Shown: positions 44 through 10,058 of the stretch, in pieces
Layout of the letters: each line of letters starts with the position of its first letter
Position numbering within the stretch: the first letter of the stretch is position 1
Assembly (NCBI GenBank): GCA_014859225.1
Contig: JACUUP010000046.1
Span: 1 to 10,335 of the forward strand
Direction: 5' to 3'
Source of the DNA: Candidatus Aerophobota bacterium
GTDB taxonomy: Bacteria > Aerophobota > Aerophobia > Aerophobales > B3-G15
DNA: 10,335 nucleotides
Notes under the pieces: generated by a model
The model's database searches: none
What the model was told of the DNA's origin: nothing
Seen by the model: the letters and a program-made list of their open reading frames with translations, nothing else
Position numbers and translations under genes: made by a program

Positions 44-2863
44 ATGAAAAAAACAAAAAAAGTTCTGGCTCTGGTTGTTTTTATCCATCTTTTAATATTT
101 TCTTGTACGTTCTTTTCCCTTCCCTCTTTGGCATTGGCACAAGCAGGACCTGAAGAGGATTTTGCTACTGCACAGAGACTTTACCAGGATGGAGTGCTTG
201 AGCTTGCTGCACAGCAGTTCCAGAATTTTATAGCAAAATACCCGGAGCACGAACTTTGTGATGATGCTCAATACTGGACGGGAATGAGCTTCTGGCAGAC
301 GGGCAGATACGACCGGGCACAAGAAGCCTTTGAAACCTTGCTGAGAAGATATCCTAAAAGCGAGCTTTTGCATAAAGCACTCTATCAGTTAGGAGAGTGC
401 TACTACCAGCTGAACAAATTTGACGAGGCACTTTCCACATATCAAAGGCTCACAGCAAGTTTCCCTCAAAGTGAACTTGCCCCTTTCGCTCTTTACTCTG
501 CAGGGTATATTCAGTATGAAGGTAGAAACTACAAAGGTGCATTTGAAAATTTTAGAAAGCTAAAGGAGAACTATCCATATTTTGAATACTATCAAGAGGC
601 ATGGTATATTTACGCAAAACTTCTTTATCTGGAAAAAAAGTTTTCTCAAGCCATAGAAGAGTTCACCTCCTTTCTGAAAGATTATCCGGTTTCACCCTAT
701 ACACAAGATGTTTATACAGAAAGAGGATTTTCTTATTTTGAACTTGCTAACTACAAAGAGGCAGTTCAGGATTTTAAAAAAGTAAACCTTTTTTACTGGG
801 AGGCAGAAGCCTTATATCAGCTTAGACAATATAAAGAGGCAAGAGATGCTTATACAAGGGAACGTGCCCGAGCGCACAGTGAGTGGATGCAAGAGGCTCT
901 TTTTGGTATTTCTTACACGTATTTTCAGGAAAAAAGTTTTGATGAGGCAGCCCGAAAATTTCAGGATTTTATCACCAGCTATCCTAATTCGGTCAACATT
1001 CCTGAAGCCTGGGTCAGACTGGGTGATTCGTATTATTATAGAAGAAATTTCAATTCCGCTATTGATGCCTACGAGCAAATTATCAACTGGCACAGGGATA
1101 GTGAATTCATTGACGAGGCACTGATTGGAGCAGGTTACTGCTATTTTGCCCTGGAAAGCTTTGATAAGGCTGCAGGCTACTTTGAAAAAATCACCAAAGA
1201 GTTTCCAAAATCCCCTTATCACCTTGAGGCAACTTTTCACTTGGCGGAAAGTCTTTTAAATATGTCAAGATACCGCGAGTCAAGAAGTCATTTTGAAAAA
1301 GTTCTCTCTGGATATCCAGCTACCAGAGAGGCAGCTCTTGCTCAGTATGAAATAGGCTGGTCCTACATAGGGGAGAATAACTACAGCCTTGCCCTGGAGG
1401 CTTTTGATAAGGTAATCAAGGTATATCCTGTATCAGAAAAAGTTCCTGATGCACTTTTGCAAAAAGGTAACTGTCTTTTTAATTTAAAAAGATTCAGAGA
1501 AGCCACTGAAACTTACACTCAGCTTGTAAACAGGTTCCCTCAATCAGACCTTGTGCCTCTTGCCATATACCAGACTGGAGCCTCCTATTTTAAACTTGAA
1601 AGATACGATGAGGCAAGAAGTTATTATACAAGGTTTATGGAAAATTTTCCTGTTAATCCCCATACACCTGATGCTCAGTATGCAATTGGCTGGACTTATT
1701 TTCACCAGCAAAGATGGTCTTTGTCCAGAGAAGCTTTTCAAAAAATACTGGATAAATTCCCCCGAAGAGAAGATTTATTGGAGCATGCTTTATATTTAAT
1801 CGGGAACTGCTGGTACAACGAGGGAATAATTGATAGGGCAATTGATACCTTTGACAGGATGATTTCCCGCTATCCTGCAAGTGAATTTGTTCCCCCTGCG
1901 CTTTTCAGAATAGGAGAGGCTTATGAGCGACTCGGGCAGGAAGGAGAGGCACATGAGCGACGTGAACAGGAAAATAGAGCGCTTGATACCTTCGGCAGGA
2001 TAGTAAGGGATTATCCTCTATTTCCAGATGCTGATGCGGCTCAATTTAAGATAGCTAACCACTATATAAGAAAAGAAAACTACGAAAAAGCAAAGGATGA
2101 ACTGAGAAAAATAATAGATAAGTTTCCTAAAAGTCCCGACCTTCCTCTGGCTTACTACTGGTTAGGTTACTCTTACTTTGAGCTTGGAGACTATCCAAAT
2201 TCTACCCATTTTTATCAGGAATTTGTTAAGCTTTTCCCGGGCAACCCCTTCCTGGGAGAAGTTCACTATAGATTAGGAGATGCTCTTTTCAAACAGGCAA
2301 AATACAGAGAAGCAGCAGCATCCTATACTAATGCCCTCAATACATCAAGAATGAGGGATATTCTCCTGAATGCCCTTTATAGCTTAGGACTTTGCTGGGA
2401 AAATGCGGGTGAATGGAAAAGGGCAGAGGAGAGCTTTCAAAGATTCATTAGAGACTACTCTGACCATGAACTCATCTTACCCGCACGTCTGAAACTTGCC
2501 AACGCCCTATTCCAGCAGGCACAATGGACTGAAGCACGCAATCATTACCAGTGGGTTGTGGCAAATGGCAGAGGAACCGAACTATTAATTGAAGCTCAGT
2601 ACAGAGTTGGTGATTGTTGGTTCAGGGAGAAAAATTACGAAAAGGCTGTTGTAGAGTATCTGAAAATTCCTACCTCCTATCCTCCTGATAGATTTCCCCA
2701 GGTTAAAGAGTGGATTTTCAATGCTGAGCTGCAGGTTGCAGAATGTTACAAGGCTTTAGGTGAGGTGGAGGCAGCGCAAAGAACATATAGGAAAATAATC
2801 CAAACCAGGGATTACAAAGAGGAGTGGATTAAAGAGGCAGAGCGAAGATTAAAGGAGCTTTAA
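44..2863 (+). CDS. Large secreted TPR-repeat protein (BamD/CpoB-like repeats)
   Basis: The 939-residue protein starts with a signal peptide: Lys-rich MKKTKKV, a hydrophobic core to about residue 30, and a probable cleavage near ALAQA (about 31-34). The rest is a nearly unbroken array of roughly 22-24 TPR units of 33-38 residues. Each has the pattern aromatic/Gly-x-x-Tyr-x-Tyr ... Tyr-x-x-Ala-x-x-x-Phe ... Phe/Tyr-Pro-x-Ser, for example KYPEHEL, RYPKSEL, SFPQSEL and KFPKSPD. The YP/FP-x-S turn is typical of the TPRs of BamD and CpoB/YbgF. Known TPR proteins of this type act as periplasmic scaffolds at the outer membrane; that role is inferred here. No catalytic domain is seen. AAGGAG lies 7 bases before the ATG. 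The next gene follows after 2 bases, so the two are probably co-translated and may work together. A 30-base tandem duplication lengthens one repeat (residues about 623-642). The specific function is unknown. Confidence 0.93.
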   Translation: MKKTKKVLALVVFIHLLIFSCTFFSLPSLALAQAGPEEDFATAQRLYQDGVLELAAQQFQNFIAKYPEHELCDDAQYWTGMSFWQTGRYDRAQEAFETLLRRYPKSELLHKALYQLGECYYQLNKFDEALSTYQRLTASFPQSELAPFALYSAGYIQYEGRNYKGAFENFRKLKENYPYFEYYQEAWYIYAKLLYLEKKFSQAIEEFTSFLKDYPVSPYTQDVYTERGFSYFELANYKEAVQDFKKVNLFYWEAEALYQLRQYKEARDAYTRERARAHSEWMQEALFGISYTYFQEKSFDEAARKFQDFITSYPNSVNIPEAWVRLGDSYYYRRNFNSAIDAYEQIINWHRDSEFIDEALIGAGYCYFALESFDKAAGYFEKITKEFPKSPYHLEATFHLAESLLNMSRYRESRSHFEKVLSGYPATREAALAQYEIGWSYIGENNYSLALEAFDKVIKVYPVSEKVPDALLQKGNCLFNLKRFREATETYTQLVNRFPQSDLVPLAIYQTGASYFKLERYDEARSYYTRFMENFPVNPHTPDAQYAIGWTYFHQQRWSLSREAFQKILDKFPRREDLLEHALYLIGNCWYNEGIIDRAIDTFDRMISRYPASEFVPPALFRIGEAYERLGQEGEAHERREQENRALDTFGRIVRDYPLFPDADAAQFKIANHYIRKENYEKAKDELRKIIDKFPKSPDLPLAYYWLGYSYFELGDYPNSTHFYQEFVKLFPGNPFLGEVHYRLGDALFKQAKYREAAASYTNALNTSRMRDILLNALYSLGLCWENAGEWKRAEESFQRFIRDYSDHELILPARLKLANALFQQAQWTEARNHYQWVVANGRGTELLIEAQYRVGDCWFREKNYEKAVVEYLKIPTSYPPDRFPQVKEWIFNAELQVAECYKALGEVEAAQRTYRKIIQTRDYKEEWIKEAERRLKEL
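1912..1971 (+). repeat. 30-bp imperfect tandem duplication inside the TPR gene
   Basis: Two adjacent 30-base units (1912-1941 and 1942-1971) both begin AGGAGAGGC, share ATGAGCGAC in the middle and end CAGGA. By eye they match at 24 of 30 positions. The unit is a multiple of three, so the frame is kept. It encodes GEAYERLGQE followed by GEAHERREQE, adding ten charged residues within one TPR hairpin, just before RALDTF. Confidence 0.85.
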
Positions 2864-2865
2864 GA

Positions 2866-5193
2866 ATGAGAAGATATCTTTTTTTGGCGCTCATACCTAT
2901 TTTGCTTTTTACGCTCCAATTTGCCTTTGCAGAGGAAGATGAAGAACCTTTAACCAGGCTCCCAACCATTGTGGTAAGAGGAGAAGATAGGTCATACCTT
3001 GAGATTATAAGACCAAAAGAGATATACTATATGCCCCATAGAGGAGAAAAAGGGAAAGGTGAGATTCCCTATGAACTAGAACTTCCCCCACACACAAGGC
3101 TTGAAACTAAACTCCCCACTCCTTATGTCCGTTTCATTGAGATAAAACCCCTTGCTACCCCTGTGCAAATAAAAGAAATTCCTGCCTTATCCCCTATTCC
3201 ACCTTCTCTTTCTCAGGAGTATCTGGGTGCAGAAAGATTTACCATCCCTCAGGATAAAATTGAGAAAGAATTTATTGCCATGGAGAAAATAACTAAAAAA
3301 GCGCTCATTCATCCCCCTCTTTATCCTCTATCTATTATCAGAGAAACCTACCTGCCTCCAGTTGGAGAACCTATTCCTACCGAAGCTATAGAGATGGCAA
3401 AACCGCCAGAAATAACAAAGGTAACGGTCAGGGAAATGCCTGTTTTTACCCTTGCTGATGTATATATTCAGGAGGAGAAAATATTTCTACCCGAGCCAGA
3501 AAGATGGGAGAAAGTGGTTATACCAGAAAAAATCTCAGGAGAGAAAAAAGTTATCTTTTTTACTCCACTTATAGAGGTTCCCGAAAAATCTGTTGCTCAA
3601 ATTCCTCCTCCCCGGGTTTCTTTAGAGCCACCAGCACTCCACCCCTTGTTTTACGAAAAGAGCATCCCCAGAGAACCTATCAGAGAGATTTCTCTTCGCC
3701 ATTTGTACACAGAAGCTACCTTGAGACCGGGAGAGAAAGAAAAGGAGCCTTTACTGGTAAAAACAGTTAAGGAATTCAGGGAAGAGAAAGAATTAATACG
3801 ACCTCCCGTAGAAGCTCCTCACGTAGAAAGAGTTTATTTTCCCGAGAAAATTAAAAAATCCGAGTATCCCTTCGTTACATTTGCTGTGGGTGGAGATGAT
3901 GCTGCTGGTTTCAACTATCAAATTAGCTACGGAAGAGAGGATGCGGACAAAAGATACCTTTTAACCTTAAAAAGAGACTCTTCTCCTCATTATGTTGCTC
4001 ATCAATCTGCTCCAGTTACAGGTGAGACTTTATTACGGGAAATAGATGTTCTTCAAGGGGGTCTAAGCTGGGGTGAAGTGGGGGAAAATGAAACTCAAAT
4101 ATATGTTGATGCAGCACAAAAGGTGCTGGGACTACCAGGTGCAGGAAAAAGAAAAGATACATCCATTTATTTTTCAGGTAAAACTACTATTGCAGACATC
4201 TGGAAAGTAGGTGTATGGGGGGAGAAGGCAACACGGGAGGACAACCAGCCCGTAGAAGAAAAATTAGATGATTTGAGTTATGGAGCTAACGTATCTCTTC
4301 AACCTAAAAAATCTGACTTTTTGATAGAAGGTGAGATTAACTGGGATGACTTAAGAAAGCTATCTCCTGGGGAAGATAGAAGGAATAGGTACCAGGCCCT
4401 ACTGCAAGTAAAAGCTCTGCGGCCATTTTCCTTAAGTGAGAACATCTTTCTGGAATCTCCCAGAATAGGTATAAAAGGCATTCAAGATAGAGAAGCCGAG
4501 CTGGTGGGATTTGTAAGAGTGCACTGGTATGGAAAAGATGCTCTGGAAGTATTGCTGGATATTGATAAAGACTTTTACCTTCCCCCATTTGCCAGCACCT
4601 ATATACCCCAGGATTACTCTCAGGTCGCTCTGGATATGGGTGAGGTAAGTATGACTAAATATTCCCTTAGGCTGAACTACACCAGAGCATTATTGATAGA
4701 TGGAGCTTTAATAATTTTTAGTGAACACGGCAATGACCTGGTCTGGGTATACGATGACCGTAGACTAAACCCTAAAACAGTTCATCTTTCACGAGAGGGT
4801 GTAAGGTTACAGGGAAGATGGTATATCACCCCCTTCGTAATCTTTGAGCCTTCCTACACCTGGAAAAATGTGAAAAATCTACAAAACTCTGAAGAGGTGA
4901 TTCCTCACCAACCTGAAAGTGCCTTAGAGGCTCTTTTAACTATATACCTTTTCAAAAGAGAAAAAGATGTTTTAGCCCTGGAAGCAAAAGGCGAGTGGTT
5001 AAGTGAAAGGTACTACACTTTTGAGCCCGGGGATGTCCTTGATGCCTCATCCAGAATAGGATTAAAGCTAACCTACCAGCAGGAAAGATGGAAGGCTTTC
5101 CTGGGGATGGAGAGCACAAACCACTTTTTATCAAAGGATTATAAACTGCTGGAAAAAAGCTTAAACTTTGGTTTAGAAATTAAACTATTTTAA
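2866..5193 (+). CDS. Outer-membrane beta-barrel candidate with proline-rich periplasmic region
   Basis: The protein has 775 residues. A signal peptide covers about residues 1-22 (MRRYLFLAL core, cleavage near FAFA-EEDEE). Residues about 23-330 are rich in Pro, Glu and Ile/Val and form short strand-like blocks separated by prolines. They begin with LPTIVVRGEDRSY, which loosely recalls the start of TonB-dependent receptor plug regions, but no full plug domain is recognised. From about residue 335 (FVTFAVGGDDAAGFNYQISY) to the end, alternating polar/hydrophobic strands with short turns suggest a beta-barrel. The C-terminus LNFGLEIKLF ends in Phe and fits the BAM-recognition beta-signal. AAAGGAG overlaps the end of the upstream TPR gene, 8 bases before the ATG, implying coupled translation. 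The substrate or role is not known; a porin-like, receptor or structural barrel are all possible. Outer-membrane location is well supported, function is not. Confidence 0.8.
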   Translation: MRRYLFLALIPILLFTLQFAFAEEDEEPLTRLPTIVVRGEDRSYLEIIRPKEIYYMPHRGEKGKGEIPYELELPPHTRLETKLPTPYVRFIEIKPLATPVQIKEIPALSPIPPSLSQEYLGAERFTIPQDKIEKEFIAMEKITKKALIHPPLYPLSIIRETYLPPVGEPIPTEAIEMAKPPEITKVTVREMPVFTLADVYIQEEKIFLPEPERWEKVVIPEKISGEKKVIFFTPLIEVPEKSVAQIPPPRVSLEPPALHPLFYEKSIPREPIREISLRHLYTEATLRPGEKEKEPLLVKTVKEFREEKELIRPPVEAPHVERVYFPEKIKKSEYPFVTFAVGGDDAAGFNYQISYGREDADKRYLLTLKRDSSPHYVAHQSAPVTGETLLREIDVLQGGLSWGEVGENETQIYVDAAQKVLGLPGAGKRKDTSIYFSGKTTIADIWKVGVWGEKATREDNQPVEEKLDDLSYGANVSLQPKKSDFLIEGEINWDDLRKLSPGEDRRNRYQALLQVKALRPFSLSENIFLESPRIGIKGIQDREAELVGFVRVHWYGKDALEVLLDIDKDFYLPPFASTYIPQDYSQVALDMGEVSMTKYSLRLNYTRALLIDGALIIFSEHGNDLVWVYDDRRLNPKTVHLSREGVRLQGRWYITPFVIFEPSYTWKNVKNLQNSEEVIPHQPESALEALLTIYLFKREKDVLALEAKGEWLSERYYTFEPGDVLDASSRIGLKLTYQQERWKAFLGMESTNHFLSKDYKLLEKSLNFGLEIKLF

Positions 5194-5949: not shown

Positions 5950-5966
5950 AAGGTTTTTATTTGACA
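5944..5966. repeat. Perfect 7-bp inverted repeat spanning both divergent -35 boxes
   Basis: TGTCAAA (5944-5950) and TTTGACA (5960-5966) are exact reverse complements separated by 9 bases. Each arm contains one of the two TTGACA -35 elements. The symmetry may simply result from two consensus -35 boxes facing apart, or it may be an operator through which one regulator controls both directions. Confidence 0.6.
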
Positions 5967-5988
5967 AGGAGAGATACTCTGGTATAAT
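5961..5988 (+). promoter_or_regulatory. Consensus sigma-70-type promoter of the hydrogenase-metVF operon
   Basis: TTGACA (5961-5966) and TATAAT (5983-5988) are both perfect consensus hexamers with a 16-base spacer. The likely transcription start is about 5995, giving a leader of about 35 bases before the ATG at 6030. This suggests strong, housekeeping-sigma-dependent expression; no sigma-54 -24/-12 site was seen. Confidence 0.85.
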
Positions 5989-6029: not shown

Positions 6030-6905
6030 ATGCAGGTGAAAGAGCAAGAAGTTATCTGGCTTCAGGGCGCTGGATGCACCGGCTGTTCTGTATCTCTTAT
6101 GAACTCGGTAAGCCCAAATATAAAAAATTTGCTCCTGGACGAGATTGTTCCGGGCAAACACATAAACCTTTTATTTCACCCTACTTTAATGGCAGGAAGT
6201 GGCGATTTATCCATAGAAGTAGTGCTGGGTGAAGAGAAAAAGACAGACTACCTTCTTATATTAGAAGGAGCAATCCCGACAGCAAAAGGCGGTATATTTG
6301 CCACTGCAGGAGAGGAAAAAGGAGAACCTGTAACCATACACTCTCACTTTAAAAAGTTAGCTGAAAGGGCGCTTGCGGTAGTTGCTGTGGGAACTTGTGC
6401 CAGCTTTGGAGGAATCCCTGCGGCAAAACCAAATCCCACCGGTTCAAAATCCGCACAAGAAGTGCTGGATGAAGAAAACATAAAAGTTCCCTGTATAAAT
6501 ATTCCAGGATGTCCTCCTCATCCTGATTGGTTTGTAGCAACAGTTACCTATATTATGCTTAATGGGCTTCCCCCGGCGGACAAGCTGGATGATTTAAAAA
6601 GACCTACGTTTATCTATGGCCAGCTTATCCATGAAAACTGTCCCCGAAGAGCTTTTTTTGACGAGGGAAAGTTTGCAAAAAACTTTGGCGATGAGGGCTG
6701 TTTATACGAGCTTGGCTGCAAAGGTCCGTTTACCTATGCAGATTGCCCCAACCGCCTGTGGAATGGTGGGATAAACTGGGTCATAGGAGCAGGTTCTCCT
6801 TGCCTGGGATGTGTAGAACCAATCTTCCCTGACACTTCGGGTCCATTTTATAAGAAAATATCACAGTGGGAAAAGTTTAAACTCCCTGTCAAAAAGGAGA
6901 GCTAA
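6030..6905 (+). CDS. [NiFe] hydrogenase small subunit, cytoplasmic (no Tat signal)
   Basis: This 291-residue subunit carries the electron-relay clusters of a [NiFe] hydrogenase. The N-terminus WLQGAGCTGCSVS gives C16 and C19. With C123 (GTCASFGG) and C161 (GCPPHP) they ligate the proximal [4Fe-4S]. H201, C204, C224 and C230 match the His-Cys3 set of the distal [4Fe-4S]. C239, C258 and C261 match the medial cluster. The position that is Pro in [3Fe-4S] enzymes (Cys in some relatives) is V251 (NWVIGAG), so a [3Fe-4S] is expected. The C-terminal cluster domain places it with group 1/2 uptake-type subunits, not MvhG- or Ech-type ones. It has neither the Tat leader nor the C-terminal membrane anchor of periplasmic members, and an in-frame TAA abuts the ATG, so it should be cytoplasmic. 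It is first in the operon, 1 base from the large-subunit gene. The exact group needs a phylogeny. Confidence 0.93.
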   Translation: MQVKEQEVIWLQGAGCTGCSVSLMNSVSPNIKNLLLDEIVPGKHINLLFHPTLMAGSGDLSIEVVLGEEKKTDYLLILEGAIPTAKGGIFATAGEEKGEPVTIHSHFKKLAERALAVVAVGTCASFGGIPAAKPNPTGSKSAQEVLDEENIKVPCINIPGCPPHPDWFVATVTYIMLNGLPPADKLDDLKRPTFIYGQLIHENCPRRAFFDEGKFAKNFGDEGCLYELGCKGPFTYADCPNRLWNGGINWVIGAGSPCLGCVEPIFPDTSGPFYKKISQWEKFKLPVKKES

Positions 6906-6906
6906 C

Positions 6907-8466
6907 ATGGAAAAAATTATCATAGACCCTATTACCAGAATTGAAGGTCATCTTAAAGTTGAGGTTACAGTAGATAAAGGAGAAGTTAAAGATGCCAGGT
7001 TGGCAGGGACTCTCTTCAGGGGATGGGAGATAATTTTAAAGGGAAGGGATGCGCGGGATGCATCTCAAATTACCCAGCGTGTTTGTGGTGTATGTCCTGC
7101 CGTTCATGCTAATGCTTCTGTATTTGCTCTGGATGATGCATTTGGAGTTAAAGAATCCATACCAGATAATGCCAGGATTATTAGAAATTTAATCCTCGGG
7201 GCTAATTTTCTCCAATCCCACATCCTGCATTTTTACCATCTTTCCTCCCTTGATTTTTTCGATGTAGCAGAAATTTTTGATTATGAGGGAAAAGAGCCGG
7301 ACCTAATTTCTTTAAAAAAATTCCTGGGCAGGGGAAAACTTTCCCCTTTCACCCCCCGCTATGAAGGAGACTACAGACTGGACAAAAAAACAAACCAGGA
7401 ATTTGCAGCTCACTACATTAAGGCACTTGAGATACGGAGAAAATGCCACGAGATGCTTGCTATATTTGGAGGAAAAATGCCCCACAGTGTAGGAATAGTA
7501 GCAGGAGGAGTTACAGAGAAACCTTGTCCTGACAAAATAGCATCTTTTCTATGGAGACTGAATGAAATAAGAGATTTTATAAACAATTTTTATCTTCCGG
7601 ATACTCTAACTCTTGTTAGGTTTTATGAGGATAATCTTTATACAGGCTCATCTAACAGCAGTTTCCTATCTTATGGAGCTTTTAATCTTGACTCAGGCGA
7701 GTTTGACCCCACAAAGAGGAATCGTCTCTTTGCACAAGGAGTGGTAAGCCAAAATTGTACCTACGAAACACTTGATGTTGAGGCTATATCTGAATATATA
7801 AGATACAGCTGGTATTCTCAGAACAATTCCAATTTGCATCCCGCCCGGGGAATAACCGAACCCGATGAGAAAAAAGAAAAAGCCTATTCCTGGTTAAAAG
7901 CACCCCGTTACAGGGGAGAGCCCTGCGAGGTGGGTCCTGCAGCCAGAATGATAGTTAGCTATTTTGGCGGAAAAAAAAGTATCAAAGAAGCTTTAGAAAA
8001 AACTCTATCTCAAATAGGAGGAAAACCTGTTTTACTTTCCTCCACTCTCGGCAGACATATTGCAAGGGCACTTGATGCTAAGCTTGTTGCCGATAATATG
8101 GCTGAGTGGATTCTACAATTAAAGATAGATGAGCCAGTCTATACTCCCTGTTCACCTCCGGAGAAAGGAGAAGGTATGGGACTTACAGATGGACCACGGG
8201 GAGCTCTCGGACACTGGATAAGAATAAAAGATAAACTGATAGATAACTACCAAATGGTGGTTCCAACTACATGGAACGCTTCTCCCAGAGATGATAAAGA
8301 TGAACCAGGTCCTGTGGAGAGAGCTCTTTTGGGTTTAAAGGTAAAAGATACGGCAAATCCCTTTGAAGTTGTTAGATGTGTTCGCTCTTTTGACCCCTGT
8401 CTTGCCTGTGCAGTTCATCTTATAACCCCCAGAGGGAAAAAACTTAATAGCTTCCGGGTAAGCTAA
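6907..8466 (+). CDS. [NiFe] hydrogenase large (catalytic) subunit
   Basis: The 519-residue subunit holds the Ni-Fe(CN)2CO site where H2 is split. The L1 motif QRVCGVCPAVHA gives C60 and C63; the L2 motif DPCLACAVH gives C498 and C501. RIEGH (residues 11-15), HILHFYHLSSLD (105-116), canopy Arg R431 in DGPRGALGHW, and PTTWNASPRD (453-462) are all in place, so the active site looks complete. After H504 there is a 15-residue tail (LITPRGKKLNSFRVS), the extension removed by a HyaD/HupD-type maturation protease. No protease or Hyp gene lies in the window, so maturation is encoded elsewhere. Length and motifs resemble group 1 uptake enzymes. AAAAGGAGAG precedes the ATG and overlaps the end of the small-subunit gene, implying coupled translation. 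H2 oxidation is the expected direction, with electrons leaving through the small subunit. Confidence 0.95.
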   Translation: MEKIIIDPITRIEGHLKVEVTVDKGEVKDARLAGTLFRGWEIILKGRDARDASQITQRVCGVCPAVHANASVFALDDAFGVKESIPDNARIIRNLILGANFLQSHILHFYHLSSLDFFDVAEIFDYEGKEPDLISLKKFLGRGKLSPFTPRYEGDYRLDKKTNQEFAAHYIKALEIRRKCHEMLAIFGGKMPHSVGIVAGGVTEKPCPDKIASFLWRLNEIRDFINNFYLPDTLTLVRFYEDNLYTGSSNSSFLSYGAFNLDSGEFDPTKRNRLFAQGVVSQNCTYETLDVEAISEYIRYSWYSQNNSNLHPARGITEPDEKKEKAYSWLKAPRYRGEPCEVGPAARMIVSYFGGKKSIKEALEKTLSQIGGKPVLLSSTLGRHIARALDAKLVADNMAEWILQLKIDEPVYTPCSPPEKGEGMGLTDGPRGALGHWIRIKDKLIDNYQMVVPTTWNASPRDDKDEPGPVERALLGLKVKDTANPFEVVRCVRSFDPCLACAVHLITPRGKKLNSFRVS

Positions 8467-8487
8467 TCTTTTGTTAAGGAGGATAGC

Positions 8488-9186
8488 ATGTTAGTGTCTG
8501 AGAGAAAACCCTGGGATGAAATAGTAAATTTTTTAACTCAGGATGAAAACATTTTTCTTATAGCCTGCAATGGATGCTCTGAGGCATGTCAGACAGGAGG
8601 AAAAAAAGGCCTGGATGAGCTTCAAAGCAAATTAGAGGAGGAAGGAAAGAAAATAAGCGGCTCTTTTTTAGCAGACTTTGCCTGCAATAAGATTTTGGTA
8701 GCTCTCAAATTAAATAGGTACATACAGTGCCTCCATAATGCAGATTCAATCCTGGTGAGCGCCTGCGGGGTAGGTGTTCAATCTGTTGCCAGCATGGTGA
8801 ACATTCCAGTTTATCCAGCTGATAATACCTTATACATGGGAGGATTCTCAGGAGTCTGGACAGGAGAGGAAAGATGTCTTCAATGCGGAGACTGCAAATT
8901 AAATAGTACTGGAGGAATATGTCCCTACGCTAACTGTCCCAAGAATCTCGTAAATGGAGCATGCGGTGGTTCAAACAAGGGAAAATGTGAGGTAGACCCT
9001 GAGCAAGACTGCGCCTGGACAAAGATATACGATAGATTGCAGGAGACAGGAAAAATTGAAAATTTAAGAAAACTTCATCCTCCACGTAACTGGAATTTAA
9101 TGCAACCACCAAACGAGAGAAAAAAAACTCTATTCTGGGCCCTTGAATTTGAACAAGAGGAAAAAGAAAAAGAGGTCGTAAAATGA
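8488..9186 (+). CDS. metV: MetV, iron-sulfur/zinc subunit of methylene-THF reductase
   Basis: The 232-residue protein matches the family called methylene-tetrahydrofolate reductase C-terminal domain, the MetV partner of MetF in Wood-Ljungdahl bacteria. The diagnostic part is residues 130-178: C130-x2-C133-x2-C136, then GGICPYANCPKNLVNGACGG (C145, C150, C159), then GKCEV (C167) and DCAW (C175). The N-terminal half has a further set: C27, C30, C34, C66, C81 and C93 (IACNGCSEAC and SACGVGVQS). These 14 cysteines fit several Fe-S and/or Zn sites. In characterised MetVF enzymes MetV passes electrons to the flavin of MetF. AAGGAGG lies 5 bases before the ATG, 21 bases after the hydrogenase large-subunit gene. 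The 3' end overlaps metF by ATGA, as expected for a heterodimer. A charged tail (FEQEEKEKEVVK) ends the protein. No RnfC2, HdrA or MvhD is adjacent, unlike metVF loci of studied acetogens. Confidence 0.9.
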   Translation: MLVSERKPWDEIVNFLTQDENIFLIACNGCSEACQTGGKKGLDELQSKLEEEGKKISGSFLADFACNKILVALKLNRYIQCLHNADSILVSACGVGVQSVASMVNIPVYPADNTLYMGGFSGVWTGEERCLQCGDCKLNSTGGICPYANCPKNLVNGACGGSNKGKCEVDPEQDCAWTKIYDRLQETGKIENLRKLHPPRNWNLMQPPNERKKTLFWALEFEQEEKEKEVVK

Positions 9187-10058
9187 AACTGAGAGAGCTT
9201 TTTAAGAAAGGAAAATTTGTTGTTACATCTGAAATTGGTCCCCCGAAGGGAGTAAATATAGAACCACACCTGAAGGAGGCAGAAGATTTAAAAGGAAAGG
9301 TAGATGCTATAAATGTTACCGACCTTCAAAGCTCAGTGATGAGACTTGGCTCTATGGCTGTTTGCAAACTTTTAAAAGAAAGAAACCTTGAGCCTGTGTT
9401 CCAGATGACCTGCCGGGATAGAAATAGATTAGCTCTTCAATCTGACCTTCTCTCAGCATACATCCTGGGAATAGAAAATGTTTTATGCCTGACAGGCGAC
9501 CATAATGTTTTAGGAGATGACCCCCAATCAAAACCAGTTTTTGACCTTGACTCGGTAAGTTTACTAAGAGCGGCAAAGTCCTTGATTGAAGGAAAGGATA
9601 TGGTTGGAAATAAGTTAGACGGCTCCCCTGATTTTTGCCTGGGGGCAGTTGCTAATCCAGGAGCAGAACCTCTTGAACCTCAGATAATTAAGATGGAGCT
9701 AAAAGCAGAAGCTGGAGCAGAGTTTTTTCAAACCCAGGCTGTTTATGAGGCAAAAAAATTTGAGCAATTTATCCGGGCAACAGAACATATAAAGGTCCCT
9801 ATAATGGTAGGTATAGTTCTTTTAAAATCAGCCGGTATGGCAAAATTCATGAATGCCAATGTCTCAGGTGTATTTGTTCCGGATAACCTTATAAAAATAA
9901 TGGCATCAGCATCAAAGGAAGAGCGTCCTGAAAAAAGTATTGAGATAGCAGCATCACTCATAAAACAGCTTAAAGGAATGTGCCAGGGAGTGCATATTAT
10001 GCCTCTTGGATGGGACAGGTATGTTCCTGGCGTCCTGGAAAAAGCAGAGCTTGCATAA
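9183..10058 (+). CDS. metF: MetF, 5,10-methylenetetrahydrofolate reductase (FAD subunit)
   Basis: This 291-residue TIM-barrel flavoprotein reduces 5,10-methylene-THF to 5-methyl-THF, the last reductive step of the methyl branch. TSEIGPPKG near the N-terminus holds E17, equivalent to catalytic Glu28 of E. coli MetF. LTGDH (D106) matches the flavin/folate-binding Asp120 region. FFQTQAVY (181-188) matches the conserved strand with the folate-contacting Gln. INVTDLQSS (43-51) and GIVLLKSAGMAKFMN (210-224) are also typical. At about 290 residues it is complete for the bacterial type and lacks the regulatory domain of eukaryotic enzymes. The start overlaps the metV stop by four bases (ATGA) with only a weak AGAGG site, so translation is probably coupled to metV. 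Pairing with MetV suggests electrons arrive through Fe-S clusters and not directly from NADH. Last gene of the operon. Confidence 0.93.
   Translation: MKLRELFKKGKFVVTSEIGPPKGVNIEPHLKEAEDLKGKVDAINVTDLQSSVMRLGSMAVCKLLKERNLEPVFQMTCRDRNRLALQSDLLSAYILGIENVLCLTGDHNVLGDDPQSKPVFDLDSVSLLRAAKSLIEGKDMVGNKLDGSPDFCLGAVANPGAEPLEPQIIKMELKAEAGAEFFQTQAVYEAKKFEQFIRATEHIKVPIMVGIVLLKSAGMAKFMNANVSGVFVPDNLIKIMASASKEERPEKSIEIAASLIKQLKGMCQGVHIMPLGWDRYVPGVLEKAELA

Follow-up and report, generated by a model that had tools for sequence, protein, structure and literature searches.

The stretch of DNA analysed here, referred to as the window, comprises 10,335 nucleotides of contig JACUUP010000046.1 from a Candidatus Aerophobota bacterium and carries an operon of four genes in which the two subunits of a [NiFe] hydrogenase, HydS and HydL, are followed by MetV and MetF, the two subunits of a methylene-tetrahydrofolate (methylene-THF) reductase (MTHFR). 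The source is a metagenome-assembled genome (MAG) of 1.8 Mb that is 91% complete and whose closest named relatives are 'Candidatus Aerophobetes' MAGs. The operon has the following features:

5961-5988, + strand: promoter-like site TTGACA-16-TATAAT with TG before the -10 element; 12 of 12 consensus matches; ~40 nt upstream of hydS
6030-6905, + strand: hydS, [NiFe]-hydrogenase small subunit, 291 aa; PF01058 (Oxidored_q6) and PF14720 (NiFe_hyd_SSU_C); TIGR00391 over cut-off
6907-8466, + strand: hydL, [NiFe]-hydrogenase large subunit, 519 aa; PF00374 (NiFeSe_Hases) at 1.2e-153 over the full profile; NF033181
8488-9186, + strand: metV, MetVF iron-sulfur subunit, 232 aa; PF12225 (DUF5981, MetV C-terminus) at 1e-33; invariant Cys
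9183-10058, + strand: metF, flavin-containing methylene-THF reductase catalytic subunit, 291 aa; PF02219 (MTHFR) at 9.6e-37, full length

The hydS/hydL and hydL/metV junctions are 1 nt and 21 nt, respectively, the metF start overlaps metV, and hydS, hydL and metV are each preceded by a GGAG-type ribosome site. Together with the consensus promoter and its extended -10 element, these junctions bear out the claim of the first-pass annotation that the genes form a single tight operon behind a strong promoter. The gene 3' of metF (10067, a glycosyltransferase) is convergent and, therefore, the operon ends with metF. As read from the sequence, HydL contains both complete ligand motifs, RVCGVCxxxH and DPCLACxxH, as well as a C-terminal tail beyond DPCLACAVH, which is the usual maturation cleavage site. 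HydS has four Cys for the proximal cluster, His201, Cys204, Cys224 and Cys230 for the distal cluster and three Cys for the medial cluster, while MetV retains every invariant Cys including eight in the C-terminal domain. Thus, open reading frames, Pfam matches and ligand motifs agree with the earlier assignment of small and large [NiFe] subunits with complete ligands followed by metV and metF.

The adjacency of metV (PF12225, with Fe-S Cys) and metF (PF02219) identifies a MetVF-type MTHFR, the group that includes types II-IV. MTHFR types I-IV have been catalogued, none of them with a hydrogenase (PMC8760232). In the type III enzyme of Acetobacterium woodii, RnfC2-MetVF, which was purified as a 1:1:1 complex (PMC8760232), MetV and MetF are homologous to those of the window and the electron-input gene also lies directly upstream of metV; however, the input module in A. 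woodii is the NADH-binding RnfC2, whereas in the window it is a [NiFe] hydrogenase and an RnfC-like gene is absent from the window. The type IV enzyme of Moorella thermoacetica, HdrABC-MvhD-MetVF (PMC8760232, PMC5736913), likewise combines MetVF and a redox module in one cluster, and some hydrogenase-linked MetFs of Dehalococcoidia belong to the type IV lineage; by contrast, the window operon lacks HdrA with its bifurcation flavin, HdrB, HdrC and MvhD, and its MetV lies outside the Hdr-linked clade. Hdr-MvhD-MetVF was also described in marine Chloroflexi, with no hydrogenase in those single-cell genomes (PMC5736913). As noted in the first-pass annotation, no Hdr, MvhD, RnfC, diaphorase, F420 or cytochrome gene is present within the operon.

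Against the NiFeSe-like large-subunit model NF033181 (cut-off 600), HydL reaches 698.6 bits; it carries Cys at the selenocysteine position, and the best solved relatives of HydS are the periplasmic NiFeSe small subunits 4kl8/1cc1 (PDB). In the HydL tree, the neighbour is the Hup hydrogenase of Dehalococcoidia, and the relatives of HydSL are exported uptake hydrogenases including this Hup. By homology, rather than by HydDB classification, the hydrogenase is thus placed in the group 1a/NiFeSe-like family, which is normally exported. VhuA/FrhA models match far below cut-off and the operon contains no MvhD, arguing against a group 3c Mvh-type enzyme. Compared with group 1a [NiFe]/NiFeSe uptake hydrogenases (Desulfovibrio/Desulfomicrobium Hys and Dehalococcoides-type Hup), HydSL belongs to the same sequence family and has the same cluster ligands but is joined to metVF and lacks a cytochrome or membrane partner. 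Moreover, and at odds with a group 1 membrane-bound uptake enzyme, HydS has neither a twin-arginine translocation (Tat) signal nor a C-terminal helix.

Both export features, the Tat motif and the hydrophobic C-terminal helix, are absent from all 26 metV-linked HydS proteins with a readable N terminus, whereas the Tat motif is present in the 29 relatives without metV in which it was recognised, most of which also keep the C-terminal helix (Fisher p ~3e-16 for Tat versus metV linkage, with related sequences and kinship uncorrected). No Tat motif was recognised at three unlinked loci, L077, L085 and L089, which are cut or frame-broken there or lie at a contig end, L089 being the contig end of the genome G627. 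A Tat signal hidden by a wrongly assigned start was ruled out: the hydS start lies ~40 nt past the promoter, and the upstream in-frame sequence lacks RRxF/L in 26 of the 26 readable linked loci. In total, we conclude that export signals are missing from the hydrogenase only when it is linked to metV. On the HydL tree, the metV-linkage label needs two changes; a single clade of linked hydrogenases, as opposed to Dehalococcoides-type Hup nested inside it, was neither shown nor rejected (approximately unbiased (AU) test, p 0.234). Hup-type hydrogenases of Dehalococcoidia (L074-L087) branch beside or within the cytoplasmic, MetVF-linked clade.

The fourth medial-cluster position (HydS residue 251, window 6780-6782) is Val in most Aerophobota and Pro in G002, and it is Cys in G006 and in the remaining linked HydS proteins outside Aerophobota. 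Because Val or Pro replaces Cys, the medial cluster in Aerophobota other than G006 may be [3Fe-4S] rather than the [4Fe-4S] expected where Cys is present. We also observed that the first proximal-cluster Cys of the G006 HydS (L119:482-1423) is replaced by Asp (GASDSGC), that the unlinked Tat-type relative L093 has an Asp near the same place, and that the L077 HydL gene (G255:C193:5055-6629) contains one in-frame TGA, possibly the selenocysteine codon of a NiFeSe enzyme.

An absence of conserved gene order had been named beforehand as one of the findings that would refute the first-pass proposal, and the searches clearly spoke against such an absence. MetV was sought in relatives. The searches with HydL covered relatives as well, together with 294 genomes of the class to which the Dehalococcoidales MAG L027 belongs and 386 genomes sampled domain-wide; a locus was counted if HydS-HydL was followed by MetV, plus MetF where the contig allowed. 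The order was found at 27 loci in at least two phyla, with eight in Aerophobota (the window genome G000, G001, G002, G006, G007, G011, G012 and G014), 17 in Dehalococcoidia and two in other lineages (G495 and G377), and it is therefore kept across Aerophobota, Dehalococcoidia and two further lineages; the relatives are MAGs, and the labels Aerophobota and Dehalococcoidia rest partly on kinship. At L066 (Dehalococcoidia), the small subunit is cut by a contig end. In G627, HydSL lies at the end of one contig, and a protease fragment followed by MetV and MetF lies near the end of another, an arrangement that fits the same operon having been broken up in assembly.

At most loci outside the closest kin of the window, the operon includes a gene for a HycI-type maturation protease, which lies between hydL and metV in most Dehalococcoidia, G006, G377 and G495, and 3' of metF in G007; the single HycI match of the window genome is on contig C260, away from the operon. 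In G142, the gene order is an AcsE-resembling gene, Fhs, FolD, hydS, hydL, protease, metV and metF and, thus, the cluster sits among Wood-Ljungdahl genes. Similarly, a CooC-like gene lies upstream of the cluster in G139. At two loci in Dehalococcoidia (L110:4750-5901 and L115:4366-5511), a gene for a cyclic-nucleotide-binding histidine kinase is found between metV and metF, and response regulators follow metF.

The MetV loci were classed by their neighbour as hydrogenase, RnfC2, HdrA/MvhD, MetV-MetF fusion or other; this census is a comparison to a few reference proteins, with all remaining neighbours pooled as 'other'. In trees of MetV and MetF from 66 loci, four partner labels need three changes on the MetV tree, the minimum possible, and seven on the MetF tree, and the hydrogenase-linked label alone needs two and eight changes, respectively. 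Forcing the hydrogenase-linked copies into one clade gave a slightly better score than the free search for MetV and was not rejected (AU p 0.575), whereas for MetF it was rejected with a log-likelihood difference of 403. All hydrogenase-linked MetVs group together with RnfC2-linked copies. In Dehalococcoidia, the MetF that accompanies the same hydrogenase-MetV pair is of two distantly related kinds, including one from the Hdr-linked lineage, while in Aerophobota the MetF clade of the window is sister to MetFs that have RnfC2 in place of the hydrogenase. Indeed, the slot of the hydrogenase is occupied in the same order by RnfC2 in G004, G008 and G013 and by Hdr-MvhD in G003, and G013 has RnfC2 where G007, of the same genus, has HydSL. 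Because a single clade was not rejected for MetV and was rejected for MetF, we conclude that the link between MetV and the hydrogenase persists while MetF is swapped. This pattern would be expected if the hydrogenase gives electrons to MetV, and supports that it does so.

Several further features of MetV were observed. RnfC2 proteins encoded beside metVF have an extra N-terminal MetV-like domain and, thus, are natural MetV-RnfC2 fusions (L015:3-1523, L162, L174, L180, L190, L205 and L206). Most hydrogenase-linked MetVs that are paired with the MetF kind of the window end in a tail resembling RKxxxWALExE (window 9115-9183), which is absent from RnfC2- and Hdr-linked MetVs. This tail was rejected as a hydrogenase-docking motif, as those hydrogenase-linked MetVs whose partner is an Hdr-type MetF do not have it; its contact may instead be with MetF. 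Finally, the window genome encodes a second, fused MetV-MetF of another lineage (L024/L152, G000:C99) between sensor-kinase-like and response-regulator-like genes.

We propose that the four genes probably encode a cytoplasmic H2:methylene-THF oxidoreductase, i.e. a hydrogenase-linked variant of MetVF-type MTHFR with MetV as the adaptor. HydL would split H2 at the NiFe site, and electrons would travel through HydS from the proximal via the medial to the distal cluster, enter the Fe-S clusters of MetV and reach the flavin of MetF, where methylene-THF would be reduced to methyl-THF for the Wood-Ljungdahl pathway. HydSL would thereby fill the slot held elsewhere by RnfC2 for NADH input or by HdrABC-MvhD. 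Homology and co-inheritance are the grounds for inferring the physical complex, the electron path and the direction of flow; that the hydrogenase feeds in electrons via MetV is supported because the gene order is conserved, export signals are lost only upon linkage to metV, and MetV, not MetF, tracks the hydrogenase. These observations lend partial support to the first-pass idea of direct electron transfer via MetV, which is, however, not without precedent, having been suggested for Ca. Bipolaricaulia (PMC11287216).

Reduction of methylene-THF with H2 has a standard free energy of -41 kJ/mol, calculated from -414 mV, as given in PMC8760232, and -200 mV, which is consistent with the free energies there; the step is thus downhill, as the first-pass annotation stated. 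The free energy is ~-13 kJ/mol at 1e-5 atm H2, and the reaction is favourable down to ~1e-7 atm H2 at equal methyl-/methylene-THF.

Several points weigh against this proposal. The HydSL-MetVF complex is predicted from gene content and sequence. The model of the MetV monomer has a predicted local distance difference test (pLDDT) score of 63.5, with a weak Fe-S half and only the N-terminal Rossmann-like domain confident. Moreover, every carrier found appears to be an uncultured MAG. Finally, reduced ferredoxin is accepted in vitro by those MetVF enzymes that have been studied (PMC8760232), and the synteny would also be expected from tight co-regulation with ferredoxin as the carrier. The PDB matches of the MetV model, which are generic periplasmic-binding folds, were discarded as being without meaning for function, and neither phmmer nor profile searches found a solved MetV or MetVF relative at the thresholds used.

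The use of ferredoxin leads to the foremost alternative, which we regard as unlikely: HydSL and MetVF could be separate, co-expressed soluble enzymes, with ferredoxin or another diffusible carrier being reduced by the hydrogenase and used by MetVF. MetVF of several acetogens takes electrons from reduced ferredoxin in vitro (PMC8760232), and a shared promoter would explain the co-location. However, this scheme gives no reason why MetV rather than MetF should track the hydrogenase phylogeny, leaves unexplained that HydSL occupies the position of the physically bound RnfC2 in relatives, and involves electron transfer from H2 to ferredoxin that is hardly downhill when H2 is low.

Less probable still is that the same complex works in reverse, coupling methyl-THF oxidation to H2 formation in an oxidative Wood-Ljungdahl pathway. 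[NiFe] hydrogenases are reversible. Aerophobetes MAGs, moreover, have been interpreted as those of heterotrophs that can break down fatty acids and hydrocarbons (PMC6472368). Nevertheless, because the forward reaction is favourable to ~1e-7 atm H2 at equal methyl-/methylene-THF, net release of H2 would occur only if H2 were extremely scarce or the methyl-THF ratio were high.

We consider it very unlikely that HydSL-MetVF is part of a larger enzyme with a subunit encoded elsewhere (for example group 4 hydrogenase, Rnf or Hdr) that would enable ion pumping or bifurcation. An Ech-MetVF or Rnf-MetVF link has been proposed for acetogens (PMC8760232), and the window genome encodes an RnfC of ordinary length and, on the ACS contig, a group 4 hydrogenase whose subunits include NuoH and antiporter types; but across lineages no such gene is conserved beside the operon, and HydS lacks a membrane anchor. 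Lastly, chance neighbourhood or mis-assembly of unrelated operons, to which we give almost no credence and for which no supporting observation was found, is ruled out by the 27 loci in many assemblies, including the single-contig chromosome CP070645.

Returning to the hydrogenase-linked MetVF as a cytoplasmic enzyme, the earlier statement that energy coupling is not visible holds for the window; the operon contains no ion-pumping gene. The genome, however, encodes ACS, the corrinoid iron-sulfur protein (CFeSP), the methyltransferase and HypD as well as an energy-converting group 4 [NiFe] hydrogenase (L210:12939-19999, G000:C16) on the same contig as the ACS, CFeSP and methyltransferase genes; the large subunit of this hydrogenase is NuoD-like and carries both RICGIC and DPCYCC, its small subunit resembles NuoB, and NuoH and subunits of the antiporter type are also encoded. 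RnfC_N matches the genome only once, within a 442-aa frame of a different contig; this is the ordinary length of RnfC as opposed to the ~675-aa RnfC2 of relatives. We hypothesize that ferredoxin could possibly drive the group 4 pump and that HydSL-MetVF could re-use the H2; in such an H2 loop, ferredoxin-dependent methylene-THF reduction would conserve energy with H2 as the carrier. Only tentatively do we entertain the broader notion of a fifth MTHFR architecture, in which MetV would be a hydrogenase-docking adaptor that remains with the hydrogenase, the catalytic MetF would be exchanged, and an H2 loop would operate with the group 4 pump.

Other observations concern the same genome. Its ACS gene (L210:1-3365, G000:C16) contains an in-frame intein of ~535 aa at bases ~1100-2710, based on matches to TIGR01445 and TIGR01443 and on the ACS profile on both flanks. 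Immediately after the genes of a second, distant [NiFe] hydrogenase with ~31% identity (L208:6407-10222, G000:C132) come those of a histidine kinase and a response regulator, suggesting that this hydrogenase is regulatory and senses H2. Upstream of the operon (window 44-5193) lie two genes, one for a 939-aa tetratricopeptide repeat (TPR) protein and one for a protein of 775 aa whose N terminus is signal-like; the latter has no Pfam or NCBIfam match.

The first-pass annotation knew of no characterised enzyme of this composition; however, the pairing and the idea of electron donation were already in print in 2024. Shoemaker et al. report that group 1a HysAB adjoins MetVF in two Ca. Bipolaricaulia operational taxonomic units from Great Salt Lake and suggest, in one sentence of a metabolic reconstruction, that HysAB may supply electrons for methylene-THF reduction (PMC11287216). 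Thus, the gene pairing and the suggested electron donation are the same and our proposal is not wholly new; priority for the pairing may be older than 2024. The available part of that study does not address how the pairing is distributed, whether export is lost, how MetV and MetF are related or whether partners are exchanged, and does not name Aerophobota (PMC11287216). Here we add that the pairing extends to Aerophobota, to Dehalococcoidia and to other lineages, together with the export loss, the MetV/MetF phylogeny and the partner exchange.

Which donor MetVF uses physiologically has been debated for a long time in acetogen energetics and is unsettled: ferredoxin is effective in vitro but, as the donor, makes modelled ATP yields on H2 + CO2 negative (PMC8760232). 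The operon occurs in several groups of apparently uncultured sediment bacteria, suggesting that they feed H2 straight into the methylene-folate step of the Wood-Ljungdahl pathway. If so, the electron donor would be settled for a large group of such bacteria, H2 would join NADH and ferredoxin as inputs to MetVF, and the donor question would become testable through one four-gene operon plus maturation genes. Moreover, H2 would be able to drive the step down to ~1e-7 atm, which fits energy-limited sediments.

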